A stretch of DNA of 41,044 bases. It comes from a virus. Positions 12,493 to 17,239 of the stretch are shown here, one piece after another. Numbering within the stretch: position 1 is the stretch's first letter; each line of letters starts with the position of its first letter. Below the pieces are notes generated by a model. The model had not been told where the DNA came from and ran no database searches. It saw only the letters and a list, made by a program, of their open reading frames with translations. A program made the translations under genes and the position numbers. The stretch covers positions 1 to 41,044 of IMG/VR virus record IMGVR_UViG_3300014838_000006, one strand, 5' to 3'.

Positions 12493-12819
12493 TTAAGCTG
12501 CGAACGCGTTTGAGGCGCGCGTGCACAAAAGGTTTCTAATAGCTGTATCTTGTGTGATCGCTTGCGCTTGCGCAAACTTCACGGCGATTGTAGCATTCTG
12601 CGCCAACATACCAGAATAGTATGGATCTCTATAAATTAGGTTCATAGAGTAACCATCTTGGTTGATGTGCGTTACTGCTTGTTTTCCTACTACTGTATTG
12701 TAATAGACATCTCTTCCATTAGCAGATGTTCCACGCGCTACAGGAGCCTCAGATGATGTAAGGATGCGGATGTTGAATACCGATCCGTACTCAGCTGGGA
12801 GTGCTGATGCGTTTGTTGG
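12493..12819 (-). CDS. Major capsid protein, exon 5
   Basis: Encodes the last 108 residues, PTNASALPAEYG...ASNAFAA. The segment LPAEYGSVFNIRILTSSE...VGKQAVTHINQDGYSMNLIYRDPYYSGMLAQNATIAVKFAQA matches the C-terminal part of N4-gp56-type major capsid proteins (E(W/Y)G...R(F/I)L.SS...GK.AY......, then Y..P...GPLAQN). The exon begins at CCA immediately after the 3' end of the third group I intron. The join TAT|CCA gives NQWNYPTNAS in frame with exon 4. Confidence 0.8.
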   Translation of the reverse strand, partial: PTNASALPAEYGSVFNIRILTSSEAPVARGTSANGRDVYYNTVVGKQAVTHINQDGYSMNLIYRDPYYSGMLAQNATIAVKFAQAQAITQDTAIRNLLCTRASNAFAA

Positions 12820-13165
12820 CAAAATCTGTTACTTTTATGACCCAGACTACAAACATCTAGGCGGAGCAACCTCTTCGAATCGCTCTCTCTATGTTTCCAT
12901 AGAGTTCAGACTATCGCATCCTCTTTCGAGGCCTCTGGGTTTAGTCGTTCAGGCTGATTATTTTTCATTAATCTCTTCAAAGACTCCTTCACTATTAGCC
13001 CCGAATCACACATCGGTATTTCGGTTAATTTGTCTATCATTACTAACAGTGTTTCATTGCTAAGTTGAGATATACTCATAATCTTGCCCCTTGTTGTCCG
13101 TCTGCATACTATGCAACGAGGAGTTCCAAGTCAATTACCAAAGGTTTTAGAACTACACAACTTTT
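12820..13165 (-). ncRNA. Group I intron 3 of the capsid gene
   Basis: A 346-nt intron. The 5' site follows exon GAACTAT, which pairs perfectly (with the U-G wobble) to GTAGTTC 9 bases inside, forming P1. Within the loop GTTG pairs with CAAC at bases 2-5 of exon 5 (P10). The core boxes are R, GAACGACTAA (complement at 12941-12950), and S, ATGCGATAGTCTG (complement at 12907-12919). The intron ends in G. It shares long blocks with introns 1 and 2, including TTGACTTGGAAC near P4 and ACAACAAGGGGCAAG. A 57-residue ORF occupies the P6 region and runs into the core. Confidence 0.82.
12906..13079 (-). CDS. Intron-encoded 57-residue protein (intron 3)
   Basis: Starts at ATG 13079 after AAGGGG (7-8 bases) and ends at the TGA inside the S box. 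The protein opens MSISQLSNETLLVMIDKLTE and ends NNQPERLNPEASKEDAIV; that 18-residue end is read directly from the R, P8 and S core elements. It is the same length as, and colinear with, the ORF in intron 2 (13526-13699), and many codons differ only at the third base. This points to selection on the protein. Function unknown; a maturase-like or core-binding helper is a guess. Confidence 0.6.
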   Translation of the reverse strand: MSISQLSNETLLVMIDKLTEIPMCDSGLIVKESLKRLMKNNQPERLNPEASKEDAIV

Positions 13166-13444
13166 ATAGTTCCACTGGTTCAGGAAACCTGCGCCCGTGA
13201 GGCCGTCGAGGTCGGTTTGAAGCTCAGTAGAAGACAGCATGAAATATGCGCTACGTACTGGGCCTGTACCGAATCTATCCATTCCTTCGATACCGCTCAT
13301 AAATTTATAAGCGTTATTTGTATCGAGGGTCGTTGCCACTAACGAGAAGTCCGAGACTCCTAAGTTAGTTGGGTTGTCTCCGTTAGAACCGCCACCAGCA
13401 TTAATCTGGGAAGCTGCGGAAACAATATAGTCGCGAAGGATAAG
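13166..13444 (-). CDS. Major capsid protein, exon 4
   Basis: Encodes 93 residues from LILRDYIVSAASQINAGGG to GFLNQWNY. The stretch NGDNPTNLGVSDFSLVATTLDTNNAY...IEGMDRFGTGPVRSAYFMLSSTELQTDLDGL is the central domain of N4-gp56-type capsids (GDNPTEI...D......L..N.AY......G...FGT.PVR.A........L...L). The exon starts at CTT 13444 and ends at TAT 13166, and both joins are in frame by the P1/P10 placement. Confidence 0.8.
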
Positions 13445-13782
13445 CACACTGTTACTTTTATGACCTAAATTTTATTTTAGGCGGGAAAACCTCTTCGGAT
13501 TCTCCTCTCTATGTCTCCATAGAGTTCAGACTATCGCATCCTCTTTCGAGGCTTCAGGATTTAGTCGTTCAGGCTGATTATTTTTCATAAGTCTGATAAG
13601 CGCTTCTTTTACAAATACCCCAGCGTCACACATGGGTATTTCTGTTAAACTTCCCAACACCACTACCAATGTTTCGTTACTCAGTTTACTTATTTCCATA
13701 ATCTTGCCCCTTGTTGTCCTTCTGTTTATCCAGTTAGGAGTTCCAAGTCAATTACCCAAAGTTTATCGAGGACATTATCTCT
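13445..13782 (-). ncRNA. Group I intron 2 of the capsid gene
   Basis: A 338-nt intron. Exon end GAGGAT pairs perfectly with GTCCTC nine bases in (P1, U-G at the cut). GATAA in the P1 loop pairs with TTATC at bases 2-6 of the next exon (P10). R box complement at 13561-13570 and S box complement at 13527-13539 are identical in sequence to intron 3. It ends ...AACAGTGTG. Long identity with intron 3 shows a recent common origin, so one probably arose by transposition of the other within the same gene. Confidence 0.82.
13526..13699 (-). CDS. Intron-encoded 57-residue protein (intron 2)
   Basis: ATG 13699 follows AAGGGG by 7-8 bases. The protein opens MEISKLSNETLVVVLGSLTE, contains EIPMCDAG and ends NNQPERLNPEASKEDAIV. 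Compared with the intron 3 copy, conserved residues such as L, S, N, V, T, P, D, K and E are often written with different third bases, there are no indels, and the length is identical. The reading frame spans the P6 loop, R, P8 and S. No known domain is recognised. Confidence 0.6.
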   Translation of the reverse strand: MEISKLSNETLVVVLGSLTEIPMCDAGVFVKEALIRLMKNNQPERLNPEASKEDAIV

Positions 13783-13836
13783 ATCCTCGGCTTGGCGCAT
13801 CGCCACGGCTAGCCTTTCGCTAACCCAAGCTAACAC
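13783..13836 (-). CDS. Major capsid protein, 54-base micro-exon 3
   Basis: Encodes exactly 18 residues, VLAWVSERLAVAMRQAED. In capsids of this type the helix after the NEQV....(D/E) strand reads VL.....(R)L.....R...D and is the same length, so the segment is genuinely coding. It joins exon 2 at ...QEG|VLAW and exon 4 at ...AED|LILRD. The RNA itself folds: GCTTGG pairs with CCAAGC, and inside it GGTTAGC pairs with GCTAGCC around GAAAG. Confidence 0.75.
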
Positions 13837-13850
13837 CATTTATTGCCAAG

Positions 13851-14729
13851 CTAAGAGGGCGTGTTATTCAACATAACCATTTCTCTATAACAACCTTCAC
13901 GGAAATCAACCTCTTCTTCTGCAACTTTAGCCCTCCCATTTGTTGGAGTATAATGTCTGCAAAATTTAAGAAGTTTTATCGCTTGGATTGCTTTAGTTTG
14001 AAGAAAAGGAATGCATCTTTTTAAGAACTCAATCGCCTCGCCTCTTGCTGAAATAGACATTCTTAACGCACTCCCCCTTAAAGAAGAGTTTGCCTTAACA
14101 ATAGAAGCCCCCCCATATTCCATATTGGAAAGAATATGTTTTATAGATTTTTCTCCAACCATGGTCAGAAGAATTTTAGGTCTATATTTTATAAGGTCTT
14201 TTTTTTGTCTATTTCCTGGAGCTGGTTTTCTAACCGACCTCTCTATTGAAAAAGAACCATCGGTGTCCATTAAACCAGCTACATATGCCCAAAAAAATGA
14301 ATCTTCATTATGTTTCCTGTCGAGGGGATTTTCTGAAAAATCATCCATCTTTCTTGCCATATTTAACTCTTTGCAAGAAGCATAGTAATCCTTTCCATGA
14401 ACTGGATTTTCTAAAAACTCCAGAATCTCCCTGGCAGAATCTTGTTTCAAGATAAGATAAGGAAGAATTCTCTTAGAACACATCCTACATCCCTCTTTAC
14501 CTTGAAGCATCCACTTCCAAACCAGTCGATTTCCTTCTTTTCTTGGCTTATCACTAGCAAGAGTTCCTCCAAACACCTTCTTTAAATATTCTGGCATTTG
14601 TCTAACGGAATTATGAAGTTGAATTAAAGGAACGTATCCCTCTTCTCTACTTCTCATCCCTATATGGCCATCGCCATCTATTAATCCTGCTATATAAGCC
14701 ATCATTTCCTTCTCTTCGGGATCTTTCAT
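13851..14729 (-). CDS. LAGLIDADG homing endonuclease
   Basis: A 292-residue protein with a strong AGGAGG site before ATG 14729. It has two LAGLIDADG helices: AYIAGLIDGDGHI (residues 11-23), and AYVAGLMDTDGSF (about 148-160), so it is a single-chain double-motif enzyme. Asp residues at the helix ends are kept, so it should cleave. A CxxC-like pair (GCRMCSKR) follows the first motif. Its last codons (N-T-P-S-stop) contain the exon-junction guide. It has its own promoter and would make the double-strand break that spreads the insertion into intron-free capsid genes. Confidence 0.88.
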   Translation of the reverse strand: MKDPEEKEMMAYIAGLIDGDGHIGMRSREEGYVPLIQLHNSVRQMPEYLKKVFGGTLASDKPRKEGNRLVWKWMLQGKEGCRMCSKRILPYLILKQDSAREILEFLENPVHGKDYYASCKELNMARKMDDFSENPLDRKHNEDSFFWAYVAGLMDTDGSFSIERSVRKPAPGNRQKKDLIKYRPKILLTMVGEKSIKHILSNMEYGGASIVKANSSLRGSALRMSISARGEAIEFLKRCIPFLQTKAIQAIKLLKFCRHYTPTNGRAKVAEEEVDFREGCYREMVMLNNTPS

Positions 14730-14757
14730 ATATCCTCCTTTTTACTGGTTTGGATAT

Positions 14758-14786
14758 ATTATAGACCCTCCTACATTATGCTGCAA
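14758..14786 (-). promoter_or_regulatory. Sigma70-type promoter of the homing endonuclease gene
   Basis: On the minus strand, TTGCAG, a 17-base spacer and TATAAT, ending 28 bases before the endonuclease ATG at 14729. The -10 box is the perfect consensus. It lies entirely inside the intervening sequence, so the endonuclease can be expressed without capsid transcription. Confidence 0.65.
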
Positions 14787-14793
14787 GTTTATT

Positions 14794-14900
14794 ACCCTCT
14801 TGATCCTGGAGTATCACCTGTTCGTTGATTATACACCCAGTTCCAAAAAAAGCCATTTGTGCCTATCGATTATATCTCTCTGAGGCACTTGGGCTGGTGG
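14794..14900 (-). CDS. Major capsid protein, exon 2 (frame interrupted)
   Basis: 107 bases. From the intron 1 junction it reads PPAQVPQRDIID, then the frame must change by one base to read AQMAFFGTGCIINEQVILQDQEG. Both parts match N4-gp56-type capsids (PP.QVP...IDA.M.FYGTG..(L)NEQV.LQ.Q(D/E)). Between them, at GATAGGCACAAATGG, two bases are extra or one is missing. The next 7-T run (TGGCTTTTTTTGG) offers U-UUU-UUG, a sequence on which a -1 shift could occur. An assembly indel is equally possible. Confidence 0.65.
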
Positions 14901-15113
14901 CAATCTGTTGCTTTTTTGACCCCTTGCAGCGCAAGGCGGGAAAACCTCTTCGGATTCTCCTCTCGGATTTCATGTATTGTCCGAGATCAGACTATCGCAT
15001 CACCTTTCGGCGTCTTCTCACTTAGTCGTTCACGCTGCCAATAAAGCTTGCGCCCTGTTAGCCCATCGGCCGTCCAAGTCAATCAGAGAAGATTTTAAAT
15101 CGACACACCTTTC
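14901..15113 (-). ncRNA. Group I intron 1 of the capsid gene
   Basis: A compact 213-nt intron. Exon end AATCGAT pairs perfectly with GTCGATT (P1, U-G at the cut). GGTG in the loop pairs with CACC near the start of exon 2 (P10). R box complement 15022-15031 and S box complement 14988-15000 match the other two introns. It lacks the P6 ORF extension they carry and is therefore either the ancestral or a trimmed form. It ends with G at 14901. Confidence 0.82.
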
Positions 15114-15320
15114 ATCGATTCCCGAATTCCCCAACTGAATCGTTGGTGGAACTAAGGCTCTTGGTCTCATGAATCTGCAAGTCGTACCACCATTAGGAGG
15201 CATACTGACCTTATCGCAGATCAAAATATAGTTCATTGTGGGAGTTGGAACATATAATAGTGCAGGCGCGAGCGACTGCAAAATCATAGGGCCAAGGTTG
15301 CCACTTGTAGTTACCGACAT
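15114..15320 (-). CDS. Major capsid protein, exon 1
   Basis: Encodes 69 residues from ATG 15320 (MSVTTSGNLGPMILQSLAPALLYVPTPTMN...) to GNSGID. AAAGG precedes the start by about 8 bases. The segment MPPNGGTTCRFMRPRALVPPTIQLGNSGID is the typical early region of N4-gp56-type capsids (P...G.T..FRR...L.P...PL...G...). Reading on beyond GAT would give an unrelated tail ending at 15030, which is intron sequence. Spliced with exons 2-5, and allowing the one-base correction, the capsid protein would be about 324 residues. Confidence 0.8.
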
Positions 15321-17166: not shown

Positions 17167-17239
17167 GGGAATGTAGCTCAGTGGTTAGAGCAGCGGACTC
17201 ATAACCCGTCGCGCGAAGGTTCAAATCCTTCCATTCCCA
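17167..17239 (+). tRNA. tRNA-Met (anticodon CAT)
   Basis: A full 73-nt cloverleaf: acceptor GGGAATG/CATTCCC, D-arm GCTC/GAGC, anticodon loop CTCATAA, T-arm GAAGG/CCTTC with loop TTCAAAT, discriminator A. The anticodon stem GCGGA/CCCGT has one A-C mismatch at its top and a G-T at its base. CCA is not encoded. CAT could also be read as Ile after lysidine modification; the loop sequence favours elongator Met. It lies at the end of the ParB-like cassette. Confidence 0.9.

Follow-up and report, generated by a model that had tools for sequence, protein, structure and literature searches.

The major head (capsid) protein gene of a virus recovered as IMG/VR record IMGVR_UViG_3300014838_000006 is interrupted by a 957-nt element, here called D, that has no group I catalytic core of its own. 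The window analysed is that whole 41-kb record (41,044 nt), which encodes a P22-like portal, a terminase and the head protein (PHROG 1357); the capsid gene lies on its minus strand. D carries a guide complementary to both flanking exons. In 44 distinct coreless introns of this gene, found in relatives, the guide co-varies with the exons, a cored group I intron is the constant downstream neighbour, and a second pairing, the anchor, lies at a narrow spacing from that neighbour. D itself is quite likely a group-I-type intron without a core, serving as a substrate module whose splicing would use the core of the next intron downstream (B, here also the helper).

The gene comprises five exons and four interruptions: A (213 nt), D (957 nt), B (338 nt) and C (346 nt; Table 1). 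A first-pass annotation, made from the letters of the window, had placed a 957-nt insertion at 13,837–14,793 between exons 2 and 3, with a LAGLIDADG gene, no group I core and a 14-nt guide to the exon junction. All of these coordinates were correct, and the homing endonuclease gene was present at 14,729–13,851 (292 aa). The guide was likewise borne out. TAACACGCCCTCTT at 13,866–13,853 is the reverse complement of the last 8 bases of exon 2 followed by the first 6 bases of exon 3, except for one G, which faces the exon-final U (AAGAGGGU/GCCCUCUU) in a U·G wobble like that of group I 5′ splice sites. This makes an 8-bp P1 and a 6-bp P10; the sequence has no other exact copy in the window, and four other matches there carry 2–3 mismatches. 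Exon 3, the 54-nt micro-exon behind D, is genuine coding sequence, its product VLAWVSERLAVAMRQAED being nearly invariant among uninterrupted relatives. Because the capsid frame is conserved, D would be removed from the RNA.

We searched for a core with a covariance model (R1) built from 19 introns of this family. R1 E-values are rough, the model having been trained on the same intron family with the window's intron A included. With filters off, R1 gave no match in D up to E = 10, and A, B and C all matched. The Rfam group I model RF00028 gave no match in D at E up to 1; only B (E = 0.07) and C (E = 0.012) matched, both weakly and below the gathering score. Only 16 nt separate the guide of D from its 3′ splice site, so a core in the normal order is impossible there. 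No group II family in Rfam matched, whether at the gathering score or with the cut-off relaxed to E = 1, and the ends of D are AAUAA..G, unlike the GUGYG..AY of group II introns. D thus has the P1 with U·G, the P10 and the terminal G of a group I intron and lacks the conserved P3–P8 core, in line with the first-pass description. That annotation had also called the core of B the only one nearby. The core of B does adjoin beyond exon 3, but it is not the sole candidate, since the core of intron A lies 107 nt upstream of D.

Relatives were fetched from IMG/VR and from GTDB genomes with the capsid protein and the homing endonuclease as starting points; the contigs are metagenomic but come from many independent samples. 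Introns were delimited by a spliced-alignment script run against a profile of uninterrupted capsid proteins, with introns allowed in any phase, a small bonus for an exon-final T and an intron-final G, and no use of guides or anchors. This yielded the 44 distinct coreless introns, which occupy four positions in the capsid gene (q88, q91.2, q104 and q114). Thirty-six are 32–93 nt long and have no homing gene (minis); the remaining eight, all at q104, are 946–978 nt long and carry LAGLIDADG genes. In 46 loci and the window, R1 found a core in none of 33 minis and none of the 8 homing-gene forms, and in 76 of 78 other introns; the two it missed have core motifs by eye. All listed coreless introns end in G, the base that the alignment favours. 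The homing gene of the window has relatives at 61–66% identity, and the q104 coreless introns of L016 and L017 carry a diverged LAGLIDADG gene, that of L016 being 32% identical to the window's. In L376 the q104 intron is a 93-nt form that has naturally lost the homing gene and kept guide and anchor. Among the matches listed, a pattern scan for the q104 arrangement returned mostly unrelated contigs and no capsid gene, and one for intron A likewise mostly unrelated contigs.

Every coreless intron has a guide, which in a single uninterrupted register forms 6–9 bp with the 5′ exon and 4–9 bp with the 3′ exon. In each of them a guide G faces the exon-final U, and all 12 distinct q88 guides have UG there. 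We compared the pairing of guides with their own exons and with those of other phages. At q88 the own exons gave 244 Watson–Crick pairs against a permutation maximum of 234 (0/20,000); the corresponding values were 6/20,000 at q104 and 942/20,000 at q91. Guides co-vary with exons, so that at one P10 position AU, UA, CG and GC all occur. The threonine codon at site 88 ends in T, A, C or G depending on the phage, and the guide matches each time; as these codon changes are synonymous, the guide pairing is selected at the RNA level.

The neighbour of these introns is equally regular. Of the 44, 43 are followed downstream by an intron of 190 nt or more, and the remaining one (L269) reaches the contig edge. 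In these 43 cases the following intron is a cored group I intron, as judged by R1 or by eye, except for the helpers of L446 and L508, judged by length only. In the first search for relatives, a cored intron at q92–145 was found in 19 of 19 genes with a coreless intron versus 5 of 55 without (Fisher p = 2e-13). Helpers are found at no fewer than six different sites, with 24 to 168 nt of exon in between. As a separate observation, the helper of L038 (4177–5003) has an apparent homing gene on the opposite strand and lies next to two other introns, one coreless (49 nt) and one cored (1272 nt, with a sense-strand gene).

Directly after the guide comes a strand that pairs with the exon immediately upstream of the helper P1 strand. 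For 39 of the 43, this anchor helix scores at least 12 and ends 7–11 nt from the helper 5′ splice site, versus at most 8 in 200 shuffles of the tail, and the summed anchor score is 658 against a shuffled maximum of 362. Even across the 168-nt exon of L268 and L288, the anchors GAACC/GGTTC and GATCC/GGATC stand at exactly 7 nt. By sequence complementarity alone, a core is coupled to the coreless intron in the manner of a spliceozyme: a cored intron follows in 43 of 44 cases, and the anchor helix abuts the helper P1. Because the anchor lies beside the helper P1, P1 of the coreless intron, the anchor helix and P1 of the helper would abut. Folding of contiguous mini modules returned these as three abutting hairpins, and folding of a contiguous 1058-nt window RNA gave predicted pairing of 0.73–1.0 for P1(D), 0.98 for the anchor and 0.96–1.0 for P1(B).

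These data suggest the following mechanism. The guide of D would form P1, including its U·G, with the last bases of exon 2 and P10 with the first bases of exon 3, and the anchor would pair with exon 3 directly upstream of P1(B). P1(D), anchor and P1(B) would then stack end to end into a single rod that has P1 helices at its two ends and, in the usual place of P2 for both, the anchor. By a turning of the rod, the single core of B could take up either P1 and so catalyse the two splicing steps of D as well as those of its own intron; the homing gene would sit in the P1 loop of D. Thus one core probably serves both the coreless and the helper intron. The first-pass annotation had suggested that splicing might use the neighbouring core for both sites, or belong to a class not yet described. 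The comparative data (44 introns, helpers in 43, and the anchor) favour the former, with catalysis by the B core and the turning of the rod being what we infer from them, and the result amounts to such a class.

Several points weigh against this mechanism. A P1 that is not joined to the core through its own P2–P3 must dock in a non-standard way, and the splicing of D is predicted here from DNA sequence. The permutation tests count related phages as independent, and the alignment bonus means that the exon-final T and intron-final G are partly built in. For the anchor, the q88 helix of L281 lies 14 nt from the helper, outside the 7–11 nt range, and the anchors of L268, L288 and L414 do not reach a score of 12. 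When anchors were permuted within a class, the signal was strong at q88 only (1/5000 and 6/5000) and weak at q104 and q91.

We considered four other explanations. Any group I core in the cell, such as that of excised intron A, might act in trans to remove the coreless introns. Trans-acting group I ribozymes are active in vitro and in E. coli (PMC4094466, PMC6155759), and the 1–2-nt inserts at q81 described below appear to use the guide of an upstream intron. We regard removal in trans as unlikely, however, because the cored intron lies immediately downstream in 43 of 44 cases and many genes have none upstream, and because the anchor pairs beside P1 of that downstream intron whatever its site.

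It is much less probable that D is not spliced at all, the homing gene having split the capsid gene into two separately translated parts or ribosomes bypassing the insert. Phage Aeh1 nrdA is reportedly split by a homing gene in the first way, and ribosomes are said to bypass an insert in T4 gene 60. An in-frame ATG directly precedes exon 3 of the window, and the homing gene could be free-standing. Yet a homing gene would not fit into 36 of the 44 coreless introns, and these 32–93-nt minis have the same guides at the four sites, most of them without an in-frame ATG directly before the downstream exon. A guide that co-varies with the joined exons has no translational role, and bypassing needs matching take-off and landing codons: the take-off codon is GGT at q88 and q104, and the introns end in ATG, TTG, TAG and others.

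Marginally less probable still is the skipping of exon 3, in which exon 2 would be joined to exon 4, and D, exon 3 and B would be lost together in a single large group I intron. Phage genes with tandem group I introns are known to skip the exon between them (Twort orf142, SIOphi polymerase), and the 54-nt exon of the window could be skipped in frame. The protein encoded by exon 3 is nearly invariant, however; in relatives the corresponding exon is 38, 26 or 85 nt, so that skipping would break the frame, and P10 fits and co-varies with exon 3 rather than exon 4. An undescribed ribozyme core concealed in the homing-gene frame, for which the 957-nt form taken alone leaves room, is hardly credible given that the 32–49-nt forms have no space for one and that L376 retains guide and anchor without the homing gene.

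The proteins that unspliced messages would encode share a feature. Tags added by the ssrA/tmRNA system mark proteins for degradation and have a C-terminal LAA or LVA-like ending. When unspliced coreless introns are read from the upstream exon, 43 of 44 readings end in AA, LVA, AVA or QVA, often exactly in LAA; the length of many short q88 introns shifts the frame, so that LAA is reached in the following exon. For introns of all kinds, in a smaller set, 63 of 121 end in AA, whereas none of 242 readings does so when the other two frames are used. The ending is like that of the ssrA tags, but here it is encoded in the DNA, where the unspliced mRNA reads to a stop. The simplest reading is that truncated capsid proteins made from unspliced mRNA would be marked for ClpXP-type proteolysis. 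We found no report of intron-encoded degrons in the literature searched, which mostly did not extend to subscription papers. Helper introns have a degron-like ending in 3 of 43 cases, versus 28 of 40 other cored introns (p = 2e-9). So few degrons in helpers would mean that messages with the helper retained and the coreless intron spliced are rare, and hence, more tentatively, that the helper may leave first or together with the coreless intron.

A second kind of insert is linked to intron A (q69). At q81, a G, AG or TG follows AUCGAU and breaks the frame in all seven distinct phages with a cored q69 intron (the window, L018, L033, L041, L085, L145 and L376), and none of the aligned relatives without a q69 intron has such an insert. 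The ATCGAT codon pair occurs in all phages with a q69 intron versus 18 of 81 others. The guide of the q69 intron, GTCGAT, can pair with AUCGAU, and its P10 strand with the GCAC or GCGC that follows; six of the seven have matching P10 pairs (GGUGU/GCAC or GGCGU/GCGC) and one has a G·U. Engineered trans-excision-splicing ribozymes, to which these inserts bear a likeness, excise a single nucleotide or short segment by means of P1 and P10/P9.0, according to work cited in PMC6155759 (Bell, Johnson and Testa 2002; Baum and Testa 2005), where single-nucleotide excision is described in vitro and in E. coli. With moderate support, the q81 inserts are candidate natural substrates of this kind, excisable by the q69 intron; no natural substrate was found in the literature searched. 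In the window the insert replaces an earlier idea of a frameshift at a run of seven T in exon 2, which we dropped once the 2-nt insert at 14,863–14,864 proved to be shared and tied to intron A. Near q95, L018, L033, L041 and L376 have another small indel, with AAT-AA/AG-CAGGTG standing where an intact Glu codon is expected. No convincing GUUGAU-type guide for this 2-nt difference was found in the gene, and the splicing model does not explain it.

Taken together, we see roughly an even chance that the gene houses a natural two-part system in which one cis-acting group I core would remove its own intron, coreless introns of 32 to ~1000 nt with their splice guide and helper anchor, and even 1–2-nt inserts, and in which unspliced messages would destroy themselves through reading frames with ssrA-like degrons at the end.

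Coreless introns share with phage group I introns of the T4 td type the U·G at the 5′ site, the P1/P10 guide and the terminal G, and as in those phages there are homing genes in peripheral loops and several introns per structural gene. Known members carry their own core, however, unlike the 44 introns here, which have an anchor to a neighbour instead. Split organelle group I introns are spliced in trans from non-contiguous parts; there one core is divided for one intron, whereas here one intact core appears to serve two. In spliceozymes a group I core removes a separate coreless intron of 64–100 nt, recognising both splice sites, and an extended guide duplex helps recognition of the 5′ site (Amini, Olson and Muller 2014, PMC4094466). 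Those ribozymes are engineered and act in trans, whereas the present system is natural, would act in cis and has the guide on the substrate intron; the 3′ site would be set here by P10, and there by a P9.2 duplex. These spliceozymes and the trans-excision-splicing ribozymes are the nearest analogues, and the arrangement looks like a natural version of splicing known so far only from engineering. The literature searched, which took in few subscription papers, contained no report of coreless group I introns.

If this is true, natural introns have been stripped of the catalytic core and rely, through a second guide, on a ribozyme elsewhere in the RNA. Such a step is usually invoked to derive spliceosomal introns from group II introns; here a group I RNA would have taken it. 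How self-splicing introns turn into dependent substrates would become testable with constructs of a few hundred nucleotides. Core-based searches would also miss a class of phage introns, so that interrupted structural genes would be mis-annotated.

Table 1. Capsid gene features in the window, in order of transcription.
Feature	Positions	Strand	Details	Basis
Capsid exon 1	15114..15320	-	ends ..AUCGAU	spliced alignment to uninterrupted relatives
Intron A (q69), cored	14901..15113	-	internal guide sequence GGTGT.GTCGAT at 15109-15099	core model match 14985-15103, 125.8 bits
Capsid exon 2	14794..14900	-	ends AAGAGGGU	spliced alignment
2-nt frame-breaking insert AG in exon 2 (q81)	14863..14864	-	candidate 2-nt intron, excised by intron A core	
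Coreless intron D (q104), 957 nt	13837..14793	-		exact boundaries by spliced alignment; core searches negative
In-frame readthrough NKLAA-stop	14776..14793	-	ssrA-like C-terminus of unspliced product	
LAGLIDADG homing endonuclease gene, 292 aa	13851..14729	-	inside D; final codons overlap guide	
Guide, P10 strand TAACAC	13861..13866	-	pairs with GTGTTA, exon 3 start (6 bp)	
Guide, P1 strand GCCCTCTT	13853..13860	-	pairs with AAGAGGGU, exon 2 end (8 bp); U·G at 5′ splice site	
Anchor strand GCTTGGC in D tail	13845..13851	-	pairs with 13796-13790	
Capsid exon 3, 54 nt	13783..13836	-	encodes VLAWVSERLAVAMRQAED	spliced alignment to relatives
Anchor site GCCAAGC in exon 3	13790..13796	-	directly upstream of helper P1; 7 nt from B 5′ splice site	
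Helper P1 exon strand CGAGGAU	13783..13789	-		
Intron B (q122), helper, cored group I	13445..13782	-		core match 13524-13682, 41.9 bits
Helper internal guide sequence GTCCTCG	13767..13773	-		
Capsid exon 4	13166..13444	-		spliced alignment
Intron C (q215), cored group I	12820..13165	-		core match 12904-13060, 43.7 bits
Capsid exon 5 and stop	12493..12819	-		spliced alignment

The capsid protein gave no match when searched against an annotated phage collection. A tRNA gene lies elsewhere in the window (17,167–17,239, plus strand). Introns B and C contain similar inserts between the intron start and the later core motifs (13,702–13,500 and 13,079–12,880, minus strand), each with an ATG-started frame that appears coding-like by eye.
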